Positions 1,749 through 59,269 of a stretch of DNA of 64,000 nt are shown here, piece after piece. The first letter of the stretch is position 1; every line of letters starts with the position of its first letter. The stretch comes from Granulicella paludicola (GTDB taxonomy: Bacteria; Acidobacteriota; Terriglobia; Terriglobales; Acidobacteriaceae), in NCBI RefSeq assembly GCF_025685545.1, contig NZ_JAGSYC010000024.1, forward strand, positions 186,001 through 250,000, given 5' to 3'. Position numbers and translations under genes: made by a program. A model generated the notes under the pieces. The model made no database searches, was not told where the DNA came from, and saw only the letters and a list, made by a program, of their open reading frames with translations.

Positions 1749-1946
1749 TCCAAGGACTCTTCCGCAAGTATAGTTCGCGGCCATCCTTCGCGACCCTTTG
1801 CGTCACCTCTGCGCCCTCCGCGTTCTGCCTCTGTGTGGCGATGTGCCGGAGGAACGAGCGTAGACGCATCTCGATACCGCTCTCTCTTGCACCCCACCAT
1901 CAACGGTGCTAGTGTTAATCCATTCCTCTCGCTTCGGCGGGTCGGA

Positions 1947-2050
1947 TTTCATGCAGAGTGGTTGAGGGACGAGCCCTGTGACGCCACGACAACCGGACAA
2001 AACACAGTACCGGTGTCAACTCTCTCCTGGAAGTCGCAGGGTACATGAGA
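1947..2050 (+). promoter_or_regulatory. SAM-I (S-box) riboswitch aptamer
   Basis: The core has the S-box order: GAGGGAC at 1964-1970, GCCC at 1973-1976, GAC-GCCAC, CAACC at about 1990-1994, then GGTGTCAACTC at about 2012-2022. A seven-base closing stem P1 can form between TTTCATG (1947-1953) and CATGAGA (2044-2050). GTGG/CCAC gives P2, CCGG/CCGG gives P3, and CTGGAAGTCGCAGG resembles P4. SAM-I aptamers normally shut off methionine or sulfur amino-acid genes when SAM is plentiful. No clear U-tract terminator follows. A GAGAG-TGG-CTCTC hairpin at about 2132-2144 lies shortly before the ribosome binding region and could be part of a translational switch. Confidence 0.85.
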
Positions 2051-2179
2051 TTCAGTGGAAGCAGAGCCGTATCTATCCAGGCTAGGCCTCATCCGCGTGA
2101 CTCTCCGTATCCTGAGACCCCCAGACAACTAGAGAGTGGCTCTCACAGAGCAGGACCCCGCAACCATCGGAGTTGATCG

Positions 2180-3481
2180 ATGGCGTCTTCCGTTTCTGAG
2201 AACTTGTCCCAAACCGTGTATGAGCTGCGCTGTAACGAGTGCGGCAAGAGCTTTGGCAACCGCCCCCTTTCGGCGTGCGAGGATTGCCTGGCTCCCCTCG
2301 AAGTCCACTACGACCTCGAGTCCGTCCGTGGCCGCTTTACCCGTGAATCCATCGCCGCAGGCCCGGCAAACATCTGGCGTTACAAGGAACTGCTGCCCAT
2401 TCCGGCCGGCTATCAGCCCGATCTTCCCGTAGGCTTCACGCCGCTCATACGCGCGAAGAACCTCGGCAAGCGCATCGGTGCAAACAATCTCTTCATCAAG
2501 AATGACTCCGTGTGCTTCCCCACGCTTTCCTTCAAGGACCGCGTCGTCTCGGTCGCCCTTGCCAACGCGCAGGCCTTCGGATTTGCGACGGTCGGCTGCT
2601 CCTCGACTGGCAACCTCGCGAACTCAGTTGCCGCGCAGGCCGCTCGCCTCGGCCTCAAGGCCACGATCCTCGTGCCCGCCGATCTTGAAGCCGCGAAGAT
2701 CCTCAACACGCAGGTCTACGGCGCGCGCCTCGTGCGCATCGACGGCAACTACGACCACGTCAACCGCCTTTGCACGCAGATCGCCGATGAGTACAACTGG
2801 GGCTTCGTCAACGTAAACCTCCGCCCCTACTACGCGGAAGGCTCGAAGACCGTGGGCTATGAGATCGCTGAACAGCTTGGCTGGAAGCTCCCCGACAACA
2901 TCGTCTGCCCCATGGCCGGCGGCTCGCTGATTCGCAAGATCCGCAAGGCCTTCAAGGAGCTCATCGCGCTCGGCCTCGTCGAGCCAAAAGAAGTGCGCTT
3001 CTTCGGAGCGCAGGCTACCGGTTGCTCGCCGATCTCGCAGGCTGTAAAAAATGGCTGGGACTACATTGAGCCGCAGAAGCCCAACACCATCGCCCGCTCG
3101 CTCGCTATCGGCAATCCCGCTGATGGCCCGGCTGCAGCCAAGATGATTCAGGAAACAGGCGGCTGGGCTGAGGATGTGTCCGACATCGAAATCGTCTCCG
3201 GCATCCAGGAGCTTGCCGAGACCGAAGGCATCTTCACCGAGACTGCTGGCGGCGTCACCACCTCCGTCACTGCGCGGCTCTACGCACACGGCCGCATCTC
3301 GCCCGATGAGCTCACCGTAACGGTCATCACCGGCAACGGCCTCAAGACCACGGATGCTCTCGAAGGTCGCTTTATCGCTGAGCCAGCCGTGAAGCCCAAG
3401 CTCGCCGCGTTCGACGAATACCTCCGCTCGCTCGACGGCACCCCTGAAATCGCTGCTGAAGAAGAGCTCGCCACGGTTTAG
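2180..3481 (+). CDS. thrC: Threonine synthase-like PLP enzyme with N-terminal zinc ribbon
   Basis: The 433-residue protein has an N-terminal Cys4 ribbon (C18/C21 and C33/C36), then a fold-type II PLP domain. The Schiff-base lysine is K119 in TLSFKDRVV and the phosphate-binding loop is SSTGNLANS at 141-149. A glycine-rich VCPMAGGSLIRK stretch follows. The annotated reaction would be O-phosphohomoserine to threonine in the cytoplasm. The PLP-lysine motif CFPTLSFKDR differs from the NPTGSFKDR commonly seen in threonine synthases. The gene lies under a SAM riboswitch and just before a CysO-like sulfur carrier, so it may instead use a thiocarboxylated carrier to make homocysteine or cysteine. The fold assignment is firm; the substrate is not. 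Confidence 0.8.
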   Translation: MASSVSENLSQTVYELRCNECGKSFGNRPLSACEDCLAPLEVHYDLESVRGRFTRESIAAGPANIWRYKELLPIPAGYQPDLPVGFTPLIRAKNLGKRIGANNLFIKNDSVCFPTLSFKDRVVSVALANAQAFGFATVGCSSTGNLANSVAAQAARLGLKATILVPADLEAAKILNTQVYGARLVRIDGNYDHVNRLCTQIADEYNWGFVNVNLRPYYAEGSKTVGYEIAEQLGWKLPDNIVCPMAGGSLIRKIRKAFKELIALGLVEPKEVRFFGAQATGCSPISQAVKNGWDYIEPQKPNTIARSLAIGNPADGPAAAKMIQETGGWAEDVSDIEIVSGIQELAETEGIFTETAGGVTTSVTARLYAHGRISPDELTVTVITGNGLKTTDALEGRFIAEPAVKPKLAAFDEYLRSLDGTPEIAAEEELATV

Positions 3482-3484
3482 ATA

Positions 3485-3542
3485 GGGCATGGCTTTAGCC
3501 ATACCCTTGGAATCACCTGAAAGACGGAGGGGCTTTAGCCCC
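3485..3542 (+). repeat. Two short palindromic repeats between thrC and cysO-like gene
   Basis: Two perfect or near-perfect palindromes with the same core GGCTTTAGCC occur here: GGGCATGGCTTTAGCCATACCC at 3485-3506 in outline, and GGGGCTTTAGCCCC at 3529-3542. Related palindromes with cores GGCTTCAGCC and GGCTTAAGCC occur at 12072-12125. Neither is followed by a T-run, so they do not look like terminators. They may stabilise or attenuate the thrC-cysO messenger RNA. Confidence 0.7.
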
Positions 3543-3563
3543 GGAACAAGCAGGAGCAAGACC

Positions 3564-3845
3564 TTGAGCGTAAAAGTAGTCATCCCCACCGCACTCGCCC
3601 GCCACACCGACGGACAGAAGACCTTCCACTCCGAAGCAGCCAATCTCACTGCGCTGCTCACGGAGTTCGACGCAAAGTTCCCCGCACTCTCTGAGAACGT
3701 GAAGGATGAGCATGGCAAGTTGCGCAAGTTCATCAACGTCTACGTCAACGATGAAGACATCCGCTTCCTCGGCGGCGACACACACGCCTTTGAAGATGGT
3801 GACGAAGTCATGCTGATCCCCTCTATCGCAGGCGGGTCGCGCTAG
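3564..3845 (+). CDS. CysO-like ubiquitin-fold sulfur carrier (MoaD/ThiS family)
   Basis: The 93-residue product closely follows the Mycobacterium tuberculosis CysO pattern: IPTALARHTDGQK, then NVYVNDEDIRFLGG, DGDEVMLIPSIAGG. Proteins of this family carry sulfide as a C-terminal thiocarboxylate on the last glycine. Here the diglycine (residues 90-91) is followed by Ser-Arg, so two residues must be removed before activation. The start is a TTG with AGGAG ten bases upstream. An ATG at 3489 would add 25 residues translated from the palindromic repeats and is unlikely. It lies 82 bases after thrC and probably shares its riboswitch-controlled transcript. No E1-like activator or JAMM protease is nearby. 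The stop is only two bases from the convergent neighbour. Confidence 0.85.
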   Translation: MSVKVVIPTALARHTDGQKTFHSEAANLTALLTEFDAKFPALSENVKDEHGKLRKFINVYVNDEDIRFLGGDTHAFEDGDEVMLIPSIAGGSR

Positions 3846-3847
3846 AT

Positions 3848-5653
3848 CTAGTGCTGCTGAGGTAGCTGCGCGTGCGCGACCCGCGCAGCTACCTGGGCAG
3901 GATCGAACACAGGCGAGGAACAAGAGGTCGCCGTACACAGAAACATCGCCGCTCGCGGTAGCTGCGGATACTGCACACTCGTCGGCAGCGGATGCGGATC
4001 GCTCGGATCGCGCCACTCGATCACCTCGTGCTGCGTGAATGCTCGCAGCGCAGCTGTATGCAGGCCCATCGCGGCGGCATCGTTCTTCCCGCCGAGAATC
4101 GTGACATGCAGCGGTGCCGTCTGCAGATCGTCGTGCGCCAGCAGCGTACCCGCCGATAGCCACTGCTTCGCCACGCTGGGAGCAGCGAGATAGCGCATCG
4201 CCTCTTCCGCGAGCTTGCGATCCCCATCATTGCCGTTCGCCGCACTCAGCAGAGACGCAAACTGCACCAGCGCCACATTCTCTTCGCGATCGGCGTGGGG
4301 CTTGAACGCCGTATCGGTCGCCGTCGCTGACGTGATGAATCCTGTCCCGGCAGCCAGCGGCTTGAAGTGTCCCGCGATAAAGCTTGCCGCTCCTTGCGCT
4401 CGATCCAGGTCGCGCCGGTCGCCATCGACCAGGTACAGTGTGAGGAACGCCTGCCCCATGGATAGCGTGTCAGCGAGATACGGCCCGGCGGGGTCACGAT
4501 CGTCATGCCGATAGCCTCCGCCCGGAAGGCTGCGATGCATCACGATCCAGTCCGCGGCTCTGCGCGCATCCTTCAACGCAGACGCATCGCCGCTGACTGC
4601 ATACATTTCAGCTAGCGCCTGAATCGTCCACCCGTTCTCGCGTGCATACACGTGCTTGTCTACGCGCGGCACGCCCTGTGCCATGCGGCCAGCATCATTC
4701 AGCGCGAAGTAGGGAGCATTCTCCGTGCCATCGTCATGCAGGTCGGCATCCTGCGATACAAACACCGCGCCTGTCGCCTCATCGGTTAGAAACCTGCGCA
4801 CGTATTTATGTACAGCCTGCGCCGTCGCCAGCAGGGAAGCATCGTGCGTCTGCCCATAGGCCAGCGCATACGCTCGCAGGTAGGAGTCTTGAATAAAGAT
4901 CAGCTTCTCAAAATGAGGCTCATTCCAGACCCCATCGACCGAGTATTGATACGCCCCACCCCATGCAGGATCAATGAGCGCCTGCCCCTGCTTTAGGCTC
5001 AGCGCCATGCGCTGTTTGTACGTCGCATCACCAGCCGCCGCGAACCTCAGCCCCAGCAGGTAGCTATCCACATCGAGGTACTTATGCCCGAAGGCCCACC
5101 CAGCTTCTTGCTTGTCGTACTGCGCTTCGAAGTTCTTCTTCACCACAGCCAGTAGAGCAGGGGAGATCGTAGCATCCGCCGCTGTCTGCAGCCGCGTCTC
5201 TCTCTCGATGCTCGGCCCCGGCGATGGGTCCTTGATGATCGCCCGCAGCATCGAAGCCATCTGCTTCGGCTCAATGTATCCCTGCCGCTTCACAATCTCG
5301 CTGCCATCCGCAGCAAAGACCACCGTTGCTGGCCAGCCGTAGTCCTGGTAGCGATTGGAGATGTCCGGTCGCGCATCCTGATCTACGCGGATCAACAGGT
5401 ACTTGTCATTCAACAGCTTGATTACCGCAGGGTTGCTGTAGGTTTCGGCATCCATCACGTGGCACCAGTGGCACCACACGGCTTCAAGATCGAGTAGCAC
5501 AAACTTGTGCTGCTGCTTTGCCTGCGTAAAGACATCCTGCGACCATGGCTGCCATTTCAACGCCTCGTTCACAGCCGTTTTCTGCGCGAGACACGCAGGG
5601 CCCGCAACCGCCAGCGTTATCCACAACCCGAGTCTCTTGAGGTGTCTCATCAT
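3848..5653 (-). CDS. Exported thioredoxin-fold DUF255 protein (YyaL/SPATA20-like)
   Basis: The 601-residue protein starts with a Sec-type signal (RLGLWITLAVAGPACLAQ). A thioredoxin-like DUF255 domain follows with the CxxC pair C61/C64 in VWCHWCHVMDAETY, and cis-Pro-type GWPATVVFAADG further on. The remainder is an alpha/alpha-barrel like the N-acylglucosamine 2-epimerase/glycosidase fold seen in YyaL proteins. Family members are usually around 680-700 residues and often cytoplasmic; this one is shorter and appears exported, so the CxxC could act in periplasmic disulfide chemistry. Its substrate is unknown. It is convergent with the CysO-like gene and follows the aminotransferase on the same strand with a 32-base gap. 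Confidence 0.8.
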   Translation of the reverse strand: MMRHLKRLGLWITLAVAGPACLAQKTAVNEALKWQPWSQDVFTQAKQQHKFVLLDLEAVWCHWCHVMDAETYSNPAVIKLLNDKYLLIRVDQDARPDISNRYQDYGWPATVVFAADGSEIVKRQGYIEPKQMASMLRAIIKDPSPGPSIERETRLQTAADATISPALLAVVKKNFEAQYDKQEAGWAFGHKYLDVDSYLLGLRFAAAGDATYKQRMALSLKQGQALIDPAWGGAYQYSVDGVWNEPHFEKLIFIQDSYLRAYALAYGQTHDASLLATAQAVHKYVRRFLTDEATGAVFVSQDADLHDDGTENAPYFALNDAGRMAQGVPRVDKHVYARENGWTIQALAEMYAVSGDASALKDARRAADWIVMHRSLPGGGYRHDDRDPAGPYLADTLSMGQAFLTLYLVDGDRRDLDRAQGAASFIAGHFKPLAAGTGFITSATATDTAFKPHADREENVALVQFASLLSAANGNDGDRKLAEEAMRYLAAPSVAKQWLSAGTLLAHDDLQTAPLHVTILGGKNDAAAMGLHTAALRAFTQHEVIEWRDPSDPHPLPTSVQYPQLPRAAMFLCTATSCSSPVFDPAQVAARVAHAQLPQQH

Positions 5654-5685: not shown

Positions 5686-6885
5686 TCAGATACGGAAAGC
5701 CGCAATCCGTTGCGCTGCCTCGGCCAGTTCTGCGTCCTTCTTCGCGAAGCAGAACCGCAGAAGATCTTCGCCCCGATTCACGCCGCTGGCATCACTCCCA
5801 AAGAACGCGGATCCCGCCACGGCAGCTACGCCCGTCTCCTTCAACAAGCGTCTCGCTCGCTCGCGTCCATCCTTACCTGGAATATTCTTCGTATCAGCCA
5901 GCACGTAGTACGCGCCAGTCGGAACCGAGGGCGTCAGCCCAGCCGTCCGCAGGGCCCCGCACAACACGTCACGCTTCTTCTGATGATCCGCCGCCACGCT
6001 CGTATAGAAGTCCCCCGGTAGCGCGAGCAGCCCCGTCGTCACGCCATGCTGCAGCGGAGCGGGCGCACACACGTACACCAGGTCATGGAAGTAGCTGATC
6101 GCTGGCATCCAGCGCTCGCTCGCTGCTAGATACCCGAGCCGCCATCCCGTCACCGAAAACGTCTTCGAAAATCCAGAGATGGTGATCGTCCGTTCCGCCA
6201 TCCCCGGCAGCCGCGCTATGCTGAAATGCTCCACGCCGTCGTAGACGAAGTATTCGTACATCTCGTCGGTAATCACAAACAGATCATGCTCGATCGCAAA
6301 CGCCGCAAGTGCTTCCAGTTCATTCTGCGAGAACACCTTACCCGATGGATTCGACGGTGAGTTCAGAATGATCGCCCGTGTCCGCGGCGTAATCGCAGTT
6401 CGCAGTCTGTCCGCGTCGAAGGCCCACTCCGGCGCCTCCAGCGGCACAATTACCGGCGTAATTCGCATCGACCGCAGCGTGCTCAGGTGATAGCCGTAGA
6501 ACGGCTCGAACACGATGCACTCATCCCCTGCGTTCAGCAGCGCCATGCAGGTCGCCTGCATCGCCCCCGTCGCTCCGCTGGTCACCAGCACCTGTGTATC
6601 GGGATCTACCTCGAGCTGATTAAAGCGCGCAAACTTCTGCGCAATCGCCTCTCGCAGCGATTCAATCCCATCCGCCCGGGTGTAGATGTTGTGCCCCGCA
6701 TGGATCGCCTCAATCGCCGCCTCAACAACTGGATGCGGGGTGTCCGTATCGCAGACTCCCTGCGCAAGGTTGATGCCGTTGACCGCGGCACACGCGACGC
6801 TCATGGCGCGGATTTCCGACTGCACCTGATTGGGCGCAAGGTCACTCACACGAAGATTACTGGCAATAGCTGTCGTCATAGTCAT
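5686..6885 (-). CDS. Class I/II PLP-dependent aminotransferase
   Basis: This is a fold-type I aminotransferase of 399 residues, the normal length. The PLP lysine is K241 in TISGFSKTFSVTGWRLGYLA. Cofactor-contacting residues are visible in NSPSNPSGK (N179), ITDEMYEYF (D207, Y210) and the final GWRLGY. An N-terminal AQGVCDTDTP replaces the more usual gly-rich LGQGEPDF motif. It transfers the amino group between an amino acid and a 2-oxo acid in the cytoplasm; closest by motif are aspartate/methionine/kynurenine-type enzymes, and substrate cannot be told from sequence alone. It is the likely first gene of a two-gene transcript with the DUF255 protein. Confidence 0.85.
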   Translation of the reverse strand: MTMTTAIASNLRVSDLAPNQVQSEIRAMSVACAAVNGINLAQGVCDTDTPHPVVEAAIEAIHAGHNIYTRADGIESLREAIAQKFARFNQLEVDPDTQVLVTSGATGAMQATCMALLNAGDECIVFEPFYGYHLSTLRSMRITPVIVPLEAPEWAFDADRLRTAITPRTRAIILNSPSNPSGKVFSQNELEALAAFAIEHDLFVITDEMYEYFVYDGVEHFSIARLPGMAERTITISGFSKTFSVTGWRLGYLAASERWMPAISYFHDLVYVCAPAPLQHGVTTGLLALPGDFYTSVAADHQKKRDVLCGALRTAGLTPSVPTGAYYVLADTKNIPGKDGRERARRLLKETGVAAVAGSAFFGSDASGVNRGEDLLRFCFAKKDAELAEAAQRIAAFRI

Positions 6886-7070
6886 AAATCAAGGTGCCTA
6901 TAGCAGAAAACGTCTGTCTGCGCTGTGTCCCATAGTGTATGCGAACAGCCTCAACTCTTGATATTCCAACCTGGGCGCGACATATTTTGAGATCCATACA
7001 ACGCAGGCAGCCCCGAAGGTCTCTCATGTGATGGTTTACGTATTTCCAATTTTTCGCACAGGTGATCGTT

Positions 7071-7217
7071 ATGTGGCTTTTGCTCGCGTTGATTCTGCTT
7101 CTCGTTTGGGGCGGTTCTTTCTTTGCCTTTCACGTCACAGGCTTCCTCATTCACATCCTGATCGTCTTCGCGGTGATCTCGCTGATCATGAATTTCGTCA
7201 GCGGCCGCAGAGCTTGA
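7071..7217 (+). CDS. Small lmo0937-type membrane protein
   Basis: A 48-residue reading frame encodes an almost wholly hydrophobic protein that begins MWLLLALILLLVWGGSFFAF and ends NFVSGRRA. This matches the layout of the lmo0937/DUF5670 family: one or two membrane segments joined by a short HVTG(F/L)LIHIL turn. The ATG has AGGTG eight bases upstream. The gene is followed 19 bases later by a terminator shared with lon. Family members are often stress associated, but their role is unknown. Confidence 0.75.
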   Translation: MWLLLALILLLVWGGSFFAFHVTGFLIHILIVFAVISLIMNFVSGRRA

Positions 7218-7236
7218 TCAGGTCCAATCGACAAAA

Positions 7237-7270
7237 GGCCGAGCCATTGCTGGCTCGGCCTCGTCGTTTT
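7237..7270. terminator. Bidirectional rho-independent terminator
   Basis: A nine-base stem GGCCGAGCC/GGCTCGGCC (7237-7245 and 7252-7260) with a six-base loop is followed by TCGTCGTTTT on the plus strand and by TTTTGT on the minus strand. It ends both the small membrane protein gene and lon. Confidence 0.85.
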
Positions 7271-7285
7271 AATACCCATGTGTCC

Positions 7286-9709
7286 TTACTGATGGGCTAC
7301 GTTCGTCGCAGCTGGCTGCGCCACTGGGGGAATCGTCGCGGAAGCTAGAACCTCAGGCGTCTCCTCCGCCAGCTTGGGCAGCTTCCGGACCAGCGCAATC
7401 TCCAGCACCTCATCCATCTGCTCCACCCAGTTCAGCTTCATCTCGTTCTTGATCAGGTCGGGAAGATCGGCAAGATCCTTCTTGTTGTCCGCTGGCAGAA
7501 TCGCCTCGCGGATTCCGGCGCGATGAGCCGCCAGCAGCTTTTCCTTCAAGCCCCCGATCGGTAGCACCTTGCCGCGTAGCGTGATCTCACCCGTCATCGC
7601 GATATCGCGACGAACCTCGATGCGCGTCAAAGCACTCGCCAGCGCCGTCGCCATCGTGATGCCAGCAGAAGGTCCGTCCTTCGGGATCGCTCCCTCCGGC
7701 ACATGGATATGGATGTCGATGTTGCGGTAGAAGTCCTTGGGAAGTCCCAGGTGCTGCGACCGCGAACGAATCCAAGTCAGCGCCGCCTGCGCGCTCTCCT
7801 GCATCACATCACCCAGCTGCCCGGTCGGCGTCATCTTGCCCTTGCCGTCCAGCACCTGCACTTCGGTCTGCAGGATCGATCCGCCCATCTCCGTCCAGGC
7901 CAGCCCGGTGACGAGGCCGATCTCGCTCTTCTCCTGCACCTGGCTGTCGCGATACCGTGCCACACCCAGAAGTCCTTCAAGCGATTCACTGGTGACGGCT
8001 TCAACGTACTTGCCGTCTTTCACCACCTTGCGCGCGATCTTGCGGCAGAGGTTCCCGATCTCGCGCTCGAGGTTACGAACGCCAGCCTCACGCGTGTAGT
8101 AGCGGATCACGTCGCGCAGCGCATCGTCGGTAAAGCTGATCTGCTCGCCGTTCAGGCCTGTGCCTTCCAGCTGCTTCTTCACCAGATACTGCTTCGCTAT
8201 CTCGAGCTTCTCGACTTCGGTATAGCCGGTCAGGCGCAGAATCTCCATGCGGTCCTGCAGGGGGCCGGGGATCGTGTGCAGCACGTTCGCTGTCGCCACA
8301 AACAACACCTGACTCAGGTCGTACTCCACATCGAGATAGTGGTCCTGGAAACTGTTATTTTGCTCCGGGTCCAGCACCTCCAACAGCGCGCTCGCAGGGT
8401 CGCCACGGAAGTCCGAGGCCATCTTGTCGATCTCGTCCAGCATGATCACCGGATTCTTCGTGCCGGCCTTCTTCATGCTTTGGATAATCTGGCCAGGCAG
8501 TGCTCCGATGTATGTACGGCGATGTCCGCGAATCTCAGCCTCGTCACGCACGCCGCCCAGCGACATGCGCACAAACTTGCGGCCCGTCGCCTTCGCGATG
8601 CTCATGCCCAGCGAGGTCTTACCAACGCCCGGAGGTCCGACAAAGCAGAGAATCGAACCCTTGGGATTCTTCACGAGCTGGCGCACCGCGAGAAATTCGA
8701 GGATGCGGTCCTTGATCTTCTCCAGCCCGTAGTGGTCTTCGTTCAACACCGTTTCGGCGTTCTCGATCGAACGAATCTCCTTCGACTTCTTCTTCCACGG
8801 CACGGCCAGCAGCCAGTCGAGGTAGTTGCGGCTCACTGTCGATTCGGCCGACATCGGGGGCATCGCTTCGAGCTTCTTCAGCTCCTGCAAAGCCTTCTCC
8901 TTCACCTCGGCCGTCATCCCGGCCTCTTCAATCTTCTTTTTCAGATCGTCGAACTCGCTGCGCTCACCGCGACCAAGCTCCTTCTGGATCGCCTTGATCT
9001 TCTCGTTGAGGTAGTACTCCTTCTGCGCGCGCTCCATCTGCCGCTTCACGCGGCTCTGGATGCTGCGGTCCATGTTCAGCTTCTCAATGGCAATGTCCAG
9101 CGTGTCCGCAATCCGCGATAGGCGAATCTCGGGATCGAACACTTCGAGTATCTGCTGCTTCTCTTCGATCGACAGTGGCAGGTTGGCGGCGATCACATCG
9201 GCCAGCTTCGCCGGGTCATCCGTACGCAAGGCCGCTGCACTCTCCTGATTCAGGCTCTGCTGAAGCTTGCCGTACTGCTCAAATAACTGGTGCACGCGCG
9301 CGACCAGCTGGTCGGTCTGTGGCGTCGATACGAGCTCCACCTGCGACACCCGCACCGTAGCGACAAAGAAGCCATCGTCGTCGTTAATGTCGGTCGCACT
9401 TGCGCGCTCCACACCTTCCACCAGCACCTTGATGTTGCCGTCGGGCATACGCACAGACTGCACAATGTTGCCGATCACACCGACCGTGTAGATGTCGTCC
9501 CCCGTCGGCTCGTCGACAGACGCATCGTGCTGAGCTGCGAGGAAGATCTTGCGGTCGCCGTTCAGCGCCTCTTCCAGCGCGCGGACGCTCGATTCTCGAC
9601 CCACCACAAACGGGGCCATCATGTGCGGAAAGATCACCATCTCGCGGATGGGCATCATCGGGAGCTTGCGCTGGGCGCCAGTCAGTAGATCGCGTTCGTC
9701 GTTGGTCAT
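7286..9709 (-). CDS. lon: ATP-dependent protease La (Lon)
   Basis: Lon degrades misfolded and some regulatory proteins in the cytoplasm. The 807-residue protein shows the full order: LON substrate-binding N domain ([20 protein letters not shown]), AAA+ module with Walker [10 protein letters not shown] near 358-366 and Walker [10 protein letters not shown], and the C-terminal protease domain with the catalytic dyad S681 in PKDGPSAGI and K724 in [15 protein letters not shown] chose the ATG at 9709 because GGGAGA lies five bases before it; the frame can be extended four codons to a TTG that overlaps this site. The gene follows clpX but a terminator lies between them, so it likely has its own promoter. 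Confidence 0.97.
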
Positions 9710-59180: not shown

Positions 59181-59269
59181 GCCCGGATGGTGAAATCGGC
59201 AGACACAGCGGACTTAAAATCCGCAGACCGGAAACGGTCGTGGGGGTTCAAGTCCCCCTCCGGGCACCA
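59181..59269 (+). tRNA. tRNA-Leu (UAA)
   Basis: The acceptor stem GCCCGGA (59181-59187) pairs with TCCGGGC (59259-59265), followed by A and an encoded CCA. The anticodon stem GCGGA/TCCGC encloses loop CTTAAAA with anticodon TAA at 59215-59217. A long variable arm (GACCGGAAACGGTC) and the T-loop GTTCAAGTC confirm a class II tRNA, as expected for leucine. It lies 150 bases upstream of a minus-strand permease gene and on the opposite strand. Confidence 0.97.

Follow-up and report, generated by a model that had tools for sequence, protein, structure and literature searches.

Granulicella paludicola, a soil acidobacterium of the family Acidobacteriaceae, carries a two-gene unit behind an S-adenosylmethionine (SAM) riboswitch. 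Its enzyme goes under the name of threonine synthase; judged by its sequence, the unit very probably makes homocysteine with the help of a small sulfur carrier. The unit lies in a stretch of 64,000 nucleotides, here called the window, of the host genome (G000, 4.96 Mb, 26 contigs), and coordinates without a contig or locus name refer to this window. We are confident in reading the operon as an acidobacterial metM followed by a metO-like carrier gene, predicted to convert O-phosphohomoserine to homocysteine with carrier-delivered sulfur under SAM-I control. The observation holds and the mechanism is likely, yet the kind of system, that of MetM, is already published. The parts of the locus are as follows.

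1946-2051, forward strand: SAM-I (S box) riboswitch aptamer (RF00162, 69.5 bits, full length).
2015-2023, forward strand: aptamer segment complementary to the ribosome-binding region (nine pairs with 2169-2177, G-T allowed).
2169-2177, forward strand: presumed Shine-Dalgarno region GGAGTTGAT ahead of the ATG at 2180 (from the sequence and the complementarity).
2180-3481, forward strand: MetM-like, threonine-synthase-like pyridoxal phosphate (PLP) enzyme, predicted O-phosphohomoserine-dependent homocysteine synthase (open reading frame (ORF), PF00291 and TIGR00260, tree, family-specific motifs).
3482-3563, forward strand: intergenic spacer with the short palindrome GGGGCTTTAGCCCC at 3529-3542 (sequence).
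3564-3845, forward strand: MetO-like sulfur carrier of the ThiS/MoaD family with a TTG start and the C-terminus SIAGG-SR (PF02597, CysO structure match, starts of homologues, tail survey).

A preliminary description of this DNA had named the riboswitch, the ThrC-like ORF and a CysO-like carrier, and all three were recovered at these places. The resemblance of the carrier to CysO of Mycobacterium tuberculosis held as well (structure 3dwg, E 1.2e-21 over 91 residues), though the C-terminus reads SIAGG and then SR and does not end in GG as in CysO. The further statement that no system pairing a ThrC homologue with such a carrier had been described no longer stands. According to PMC12172450, Hasebe, Adachi, Maruyama and Hamano (2024, Appl Environ Microbiol 90:e01247-24) reported that MetM of Streptomyces albulus converts O-phosphohomoserine to homocysteine and that metM has a SAM riboswitch upstream. 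The same source states that Microcystis ThrC shares 51.6% identity with MetM and that the adjoining gene, which carries a sulfur-carrier annotation, resembles S. albulus metO at 47%. As far as that account goes, the S. albulus system and the window have in common a ThrC-like homologue, a SAM riboswitch upstream, a carrier gene (metO with its carrier-annotated Microcystis counterpart) and the reaction, which is predicted for the window. They differ in phylum and in the GG-SR end of the window carrier; the window unit is described here from its genes, and S. albulus was compared by description. The open-licence literature yielded no paper besides PMC12172450 on O-phospho-L-homoserine, MetM and Streptomyces, and none joining a SAM riboswitch with Acidobacteria and threonine synthase, or with cysteine desulfurase and a sulfur carrier.

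The enzyme (433 amino acids) matches PF00291 with 232.8 bits and, like canonical ThrC, belongs to the fold type II PLP family. It also exceeds the cut-off of the NCBIfam thrC model TIGR00260 (281.6 against 167.1 bits). Its best named match is a protein of Granulicella sp. 5B5 (93% identity over 95%), and the sequence sources call its close relatives threonine synthase. Identity amounts to 54-55% with the Nonomuraea enzyme and 56% with that of Microcystis novacekii, as against 30 and 34% with two canonical ThrC proteins, for which the same substrate is predicted. A single branch of the tree (99/92; 100% of 200 bootstrap trees) splits 29 MetM-like rows, the Nonomuraea and Microcystis relatives among them, from four canonical ThrC, and the branch holding exactly these 29 rows has support of 84/87. 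The host's own L006, IlvA and CysM-like rows are long branches of unsure placement. At least 90% of 15 homologues retain each of the putative zinc-ribbon cysteines C18, C21, C33 and C36, and C33 is invariant among them. The canonical threonine synthase motifs PTGSFKDxG and NSxNPxRxxGQK are replaced in the window enzyme by PTLSFKDRV and NVNLRPYYAEGSK. Around the PLP lysine it reads PTLSFKDRVV, compared with PTGSFKDRGM or close to it in canonical ThrC and PTGSFKDAGM in the host's own canonical copy. Both this motif and the loop that is about NSxNPxRxxGQK in canonical ThrC are altered in all five MetM-like rows compared; we take that loop to bind the substrate phosphate in canonical ThrC. The carrier partner and SAM control set the window enzyme further apart from canonical ThrC.

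We place the start of the carrier at TTG 3564 and not at the upstream in-frame ATG 3489 of the ORF list, because homologues aligned by tblastn start at that position with M, V or L. A ThiS/MoaD-type carrier with Gly-Gly beside the enzyme is the gene order taken from Nonomuraea and Microcystis, and it is the order of the window. In the actinomycete Nonomuraea (L131), SAM-I (5816-5957), enzyme (6001-7191) and carrier (7231-7503) follow one another in the same way. The arrangement was surveyed in 80 loci of the genome_contigs collection, the best 80 of at least 585 confirmed relatives, with titles naming Acidobacteria, Cyanobacteria, Nitrospinota, Nitrospirota, Omnitrophota, Neomarinimicrobiota and others. 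A carrier hidden Markov model (HMM) matched 76 of the 80. In 74 of them the match lies no more than 0.6 kb downstream in the same orientation, and in L062 and L124 it lies farther off; L078, L092, L104 and L121 gave no match. The co-occurrence of the three elements in acidobacterial genomes, which the preliminary description had proposed to look for, was likewise found. The carrier HMM matches 24 of 30 phylum loci, the window's own included (no match in L031 and L042-L046), and SAM-I is present in 19 of the 29 other phylum loci (15 of 15 in L018-L032, 4 of 14 in L033-L046). Recurrence of carrier and riboswitch at this rate goes beyond coincidence.

The window aptamer lies well above the gathering score of 44.4 (E 3.7e-14), and a search of the whole host genome returned this single SAM-I match, at the MetM-like gene. 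Upstream placement of a SAM riboswitch agrees with S. albulus and differs from Microcystis, where it is absent. Near-exclusive placement is seen in the family: among 60 genomes there are 26 SAM-I matches in 25 genomes, 23 of these genomes above the gathering score, and 24 of the 26 matches (the window site and L132-L154) directly precede a MetM-like gene. The exceptions are a sub-threshold match at a contig end (L155) and L156. In the 80 genome_contigs loci, scanned with a model built from 22 SAM-I sequences (L083 included), all 17 sites found stand just ahead of the MetM-like gene; none is in a locus titled cyanobacterial, and some of the 80 loci have little upstream sequence. The window leader shows no U-tract hairpin between aptamer and start codon. 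Its segment 2015-2023 can pair with the Shine-Dalgarno region, a raw match given with no chance level, and comparable pairs occur in L020, L022 and L024, and farther from the start in L023 (14 leaders examined). Translational control of the enzyme through this pairing is possible. U-tract hairpins after the aptamer, as in classical off switches, are found in 7 of 22 leaders (L019, L021, L029, L031, L032, L042 and L043, the longest in L042 and L043), again a raw count with no chance level, and by eye in the L083 leader. As a separate observation, in L156 (1501-2891, G315:C36) SAM-I stands directly before a NifS/IscS-like cysteine desulfurase, in a genome that has another SAM-I before its MetM-like gene (L145); this desulfurase is a possible sulfur source for the carrier.

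Concerning the rest of the host genome, PF00291 finds seven PLP enzymes. NCBIfam identifies a canonical thrC (L005), a ThrC-like protein of PRK08197 type (L006) and a CysM-like protein (L004), and by eye we named IlvA, a serine/threonine dehydratase-like protein and TrpB. The best NCBIfam score of L004 is 295 bits for cysM, below the cut-off of 394.2, on a scanned piece lacking the last 56 residues; the full-length piece matches PF00291. The canonical thrC (C26:97981-99093) lies 1.7 kb from thrB (C26:100841-101641), so threonine synthesis does not need the MetM-like gene. PF02597 detects four carriers, namely a ThiS-like protein, a MoaD-MoaE-like fusion (both by eye), a CysO-like protein and that of the window. 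The CysO-like carrier (C8:47526-47789, ending GG-SAFCCPCCCL) shares a region of contig C8 with a MoeB/MoeZ-type E1 with a rhodanese domain, the CysM-like gene and, adjoining the latter, the sole JAMM match of the genome (C8:52172-52501). By eye, a TonB-receptor-like ORF lies between the JAMM and CysO-like genes and a homoserine-dehydrogenase-like ORF in the same stretch. The genome gave no match to MetX (TIGR01392, E ≤ 1e-40), MetA (PF04204, E ≤ 1e-10) or MetY (TIGR01326, E ≤ 1e-140); the DUF39 pathway (PF01837) was not searched. The MetX threshold was chosen because no match, controls included, passes the curated TIGR01392 cut-off of 500 bits, and some of the matches counted as MetX, the weakest ones with E above about 1e-60, could be alpha/beta hydrolases of another kind.

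Across the phylum, the enzyme subfamily, defined by at least 47% identity over nearly the full length together with the fragmentary G112 and G215, is present in 49 of 217 genomes; the next matches listed reach no more than 38%, which leaves a clear gap. Of the 49 genomes, 4 have MetX or MetA, against 70 of the 168 enzyme-negative ones (Fisher p 5e-6). For MetY the counts are 4 of 49 and 55 of 168 (p 4e-4); both values ignore kinship. Within the family, none of the 17 sampled genomes with the enzyme has MetX or MetY and four of the five without it have both.

Neighbours of the relatives were counted by clustering the ORFs within 6 kb in 110 loci, each cluster being named by eye from one member. 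Near the enzyme gene, ThiF-like genes occur in at least 15 loci, cysteine-synthase-like genes in at least nine, aspartokinase in at least eight and Asd in at least seven; these are lower bounds since many loci end early. Family searches identified ThrB, the 'proposed homoserine kinase' TIGR02535, canonical ThrC, ThiF, JAMM and ATP sulfurylase, and aspartokinase and Asd were recognised by eye. Downstream of the enzyme L112 has carrier, ThiF-like, ThrB, aspartokinase-like and Asd-like genes, and in L042 ThiF precedes and ATP sulfurylase follows the enzyme gene. L122, L123 and L102 carry downstream a canonical ThrC, a phosphoglycerate-mutase-like gene (scored in L122 as TIGR02535) and an aspartokinase-like gene, named in part by eye. 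This closeness of canonical ThrC indicates that the MetM-like gene is not just a local threonine synthase. Price et al. 2018 (PMC5764234) and GapMind (PMC7311316) both mention that gaps are left in the synthesis of homocysteine and among homoserine kinases.

For G. paludicola we infer the substrate, the product, the thiocarboxylate donor, the trimming of the carrier and the direction of the switch as follows. Homoserine dehydrogenase and ThrB would supply O-phosphohomoserine, from which the ThrC-like enzyme would form a PLP-bound intermediate of the kind that arises in threonine synthase. Sulfur instead of water would then be added to the intermediate and homocysteine released. A JAMM peptidase would trim the SR tail of the carrier, after which the E1-rhodanese protein of MoeB/MoeZ type, whose gene lies elsewhere in the genome, would turn the carrier's Gly-Gly into a thiocarboxylate, and the neighbouring carrier would hand this sulfur to the enzyme. 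The SAM-I riboswitch would couple expression to the SAM level.

The preliminary description had allowed O-phosphohomoserine or O-phosphoserine as substrate. The former, with homocysteine as product, is favoured by genome content, by gene neighbourhoods and by MetM as reported in PMC12172450; the refuting condition that it had named, homocysteine synthesis of metY/metX type under another SAM riboswitch with this ThrC the sole threonine synthase, does not hold, since the genome has a further, canonical thrC and no MetX, MetA or MetY match at the thresholds used, an outcome in favour of the mechanism it proposed. The O-phosphoserine option, in which the pair would make cysteine as CysM-CysO does in Mycobacterium, could appeal to the CysO-like carrier and to the cysteine-synthase-like gene (by eye) near the enzyme in 9 of 110 loci. 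We consider it extremely unlikely, because the CysM-like, JAMM, E1-rhodanese and second CysO-like genes already stand together on C8. Moreover, the carrier's neighbour is ThrC-like and not CysM-like, the relatives lie near ThrB, aspartokinase and Asd, and SAM-I control does not fit cysteine. Very unlikely, too, is a role of the enzyme as another threonine synthase, or as a threonine synthase/deaminase, with the carrier a bystander. Such a role would agree with the score above the thrC equivalog cut-off, with the names of close relatives and with the in vitro threonine synthase and deaminase activities given for the Microcystis enzyme in PMC12172450. It sits badly with the canonical thrC near thrB in the host and beside the MetM-like gene in L122, L123 and L102, with a carrier kept beside the enzyme across phyla, and with PLP-lysine and further active-site loop motifs that differ from canonical ThrC; SAM-I control and MetX/MetY exclusion fit methionine, not threonine. 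Another route would leave the operon auxiliary, homocysteine coming mainly from an O-phosphohomoserine-using cystathionine gamma-synthase and a beta-lyase in plant-like transsulfuration. It is compatible with a MetM role of the operon, and we think it unlikely. Two adjacent genes for PLP enzymes of Cys/Met metabolism (C19:255968-258261), resembling cystathionine gamma-lyase/synthase and beta-lyase, are in its favour, the second having the plant cystathionine beta-lyase 1ibj as a close match (E 4.9e-120; TIGR01329 467.3 bits, cut-off 487.5). Nearest to the first in the PDB is a cystathionine gamma-lyase, which fits the reverse direction; the genome's sole SAM-I sits at the MetM-like gene, and sampled family genomes with the MetM-like enzyme have no MetX or MetY.

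Several observations weigh against the operon as the acidobacterial metM-metO. The C19 pair could, as in plants, make homocysteine from O-phosphohomoserine and cysteine. The four enzyme-positive phylum genomes with MetX or MetA all have MetY as well, and G210, a near-complete family genome, matches neither the enzyme subfamily nor MetX, MetA or MetY. Since MetX and MetA are missing as well from 98 of the 168 genomes without the enzyme, absence alone says little, and related genomes make the counts non-independent. A MetX-like match, two of them weak or partial, was found in 9 of 50 MetM-positive genomes from several phyla, in which MetX only was searched; the control Synechococcus elongatus, whose MetM status was not examined, has MetA and MetY matches. 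JAMM occurs in all 22 sampled family genomes, enzyme-negative ones included. The grouping with MetM was made through the Nonomuraea and Microcystis relatives, S. albulus MetM being known by description only: no entry named Streptomyces was among the 120 matches listed of 8000 in a protein search from the Nonomuraea enzyme, and a search of the plasmid collection for MetM relatives gave Nonomuraea only. The open-licence literature held no activity report for an acidobacterial MetM-like enzyme. Finally, according to PMC12172450 the Microcystis enzyme, encoded beside the metO-like gene, produced threonine from O-phosphohomoserine and deaminated it in vitro; that it fully acts as MetM in the living cell is doubted by the authors of that paper. 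These activities count against a uniform MetM role in cyanobacteria. The Microcystis aeruginosa pair belongs to the same group as the window unit by way of the M. novacekii homologue L115, which has an adjacent carrier; it is unlike the window in having no SAM riboswitch and in its reported activities.

Related carrier systems bear on the sulfur side of the proposed route. In Wolinella, HcyS/HcyD/HcyF-MetY uses a thiocarboxylated carrier for homocysteine and a JAMM protein removes the carrier tail; MetY is the acceptor there, unlike in the host, which has no MetY match. The Mycobacterium CysM-CysO-Mec system resembles the window in its carrier and has counterparts in the JAMM and E1-rhodanese genes of the host, but the window enzyme is ThrC-like and a CysM-like/CysO-like set stands separately in the same genome. 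Operons of MoaD, E1, JAB and cysteine synthase were described by Iyer et al. 2006 (PMC1779556), in whose main text, as far as available, 'threonine synthase' is absent.

Residues past the Gly-Gly are present in 15 of the 24 phylum-locus carriers, and all 15 of those genomes have a JAMM match. The other nine end exactly in Gly-Gly, with a JAMM match in five of the nine genomes. As an independent test this association is weak because the four JAMM-less genomes belong to one family. Among the phylum genomes, 43 of the 49 that have the enzyme and 57 of the 168 that do not gave a JAMM match (p 1e-11, kinship ignored). Cys-rich tails past the Gly-Gly, as in the host's own CysO-like protein (SAFCCPCCCL), were seen in the carriers of L185 (1497-1787), L030 and L049. 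In L083 (9257-9769) the reading frame of the carrier runs on past the Gly-Gly into a NIL domain, in a region that also has SAM-I, a MetM-like gene, JAMM, ThiF and two cysteine-synthase-like genes (the latter by eye). The Nitrospirota locus L122 (166-6029) contains a MetM-like gene, carrier, NIL-domain protein, canonical ThrC, TIGR02535 and an aspartokinase-like gene (by eye). NIL/ferredoxin proteins have been tied to homocysteine synthesis in Desulfovibrio, according to Price et al. 2018 (PMC5764234). The tailed carriers in genomes that all have a JAMM match and the one carrier-NIL fusion are possibly new. An evenly balanced proposal is that the homocysteine carrier of Acidobacteriaceae would be an inactive pro-carrier with a variable tail past the Gly-Gly, activated by one JAMM and one MoeB/MoeZ-type E1 that it shares with a cysteine-dedicated carrier, a common ubiquitin-like processing hub for methionine and cysteine; in other lineages a NIL-domain protein, once fused behind the Gly-Gly, would be a further partner.

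What goes beyond the published MetM is an acidobacterial member whose family excludes MetX/MetY and has SAM-I almost exclusively ahead of this gene, and which stands apart from a CysM/CysO-like set of its own genome, together with what was seen of carrier tails and JAMM and of NIL domains. A way of obtaining homocysteine is thereby suggested for an acidobacterium in which MetX, MetA and MetY are not detectable. A widespread group of 'threonine synthases' scoring above the NCBI cut-off for thrC equivalogs probably acts as homocysteine synthase in several phyla, which bears on the dispute over the enzyme of cyanobacteria. Tail trimming by JAMM and a partner with a NIL domain would be extensions of the route.

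Elsewhere in the window, the spacer palindrome GGGGCTTTAGCCCC between metM and metO is the sole site within two mismatches. A convergent ORF (3848-5653, reverse strand) with a thioredoxin-like start, by eye, adjoins the operon, and a transfer RNA match lies at 59181-59266.

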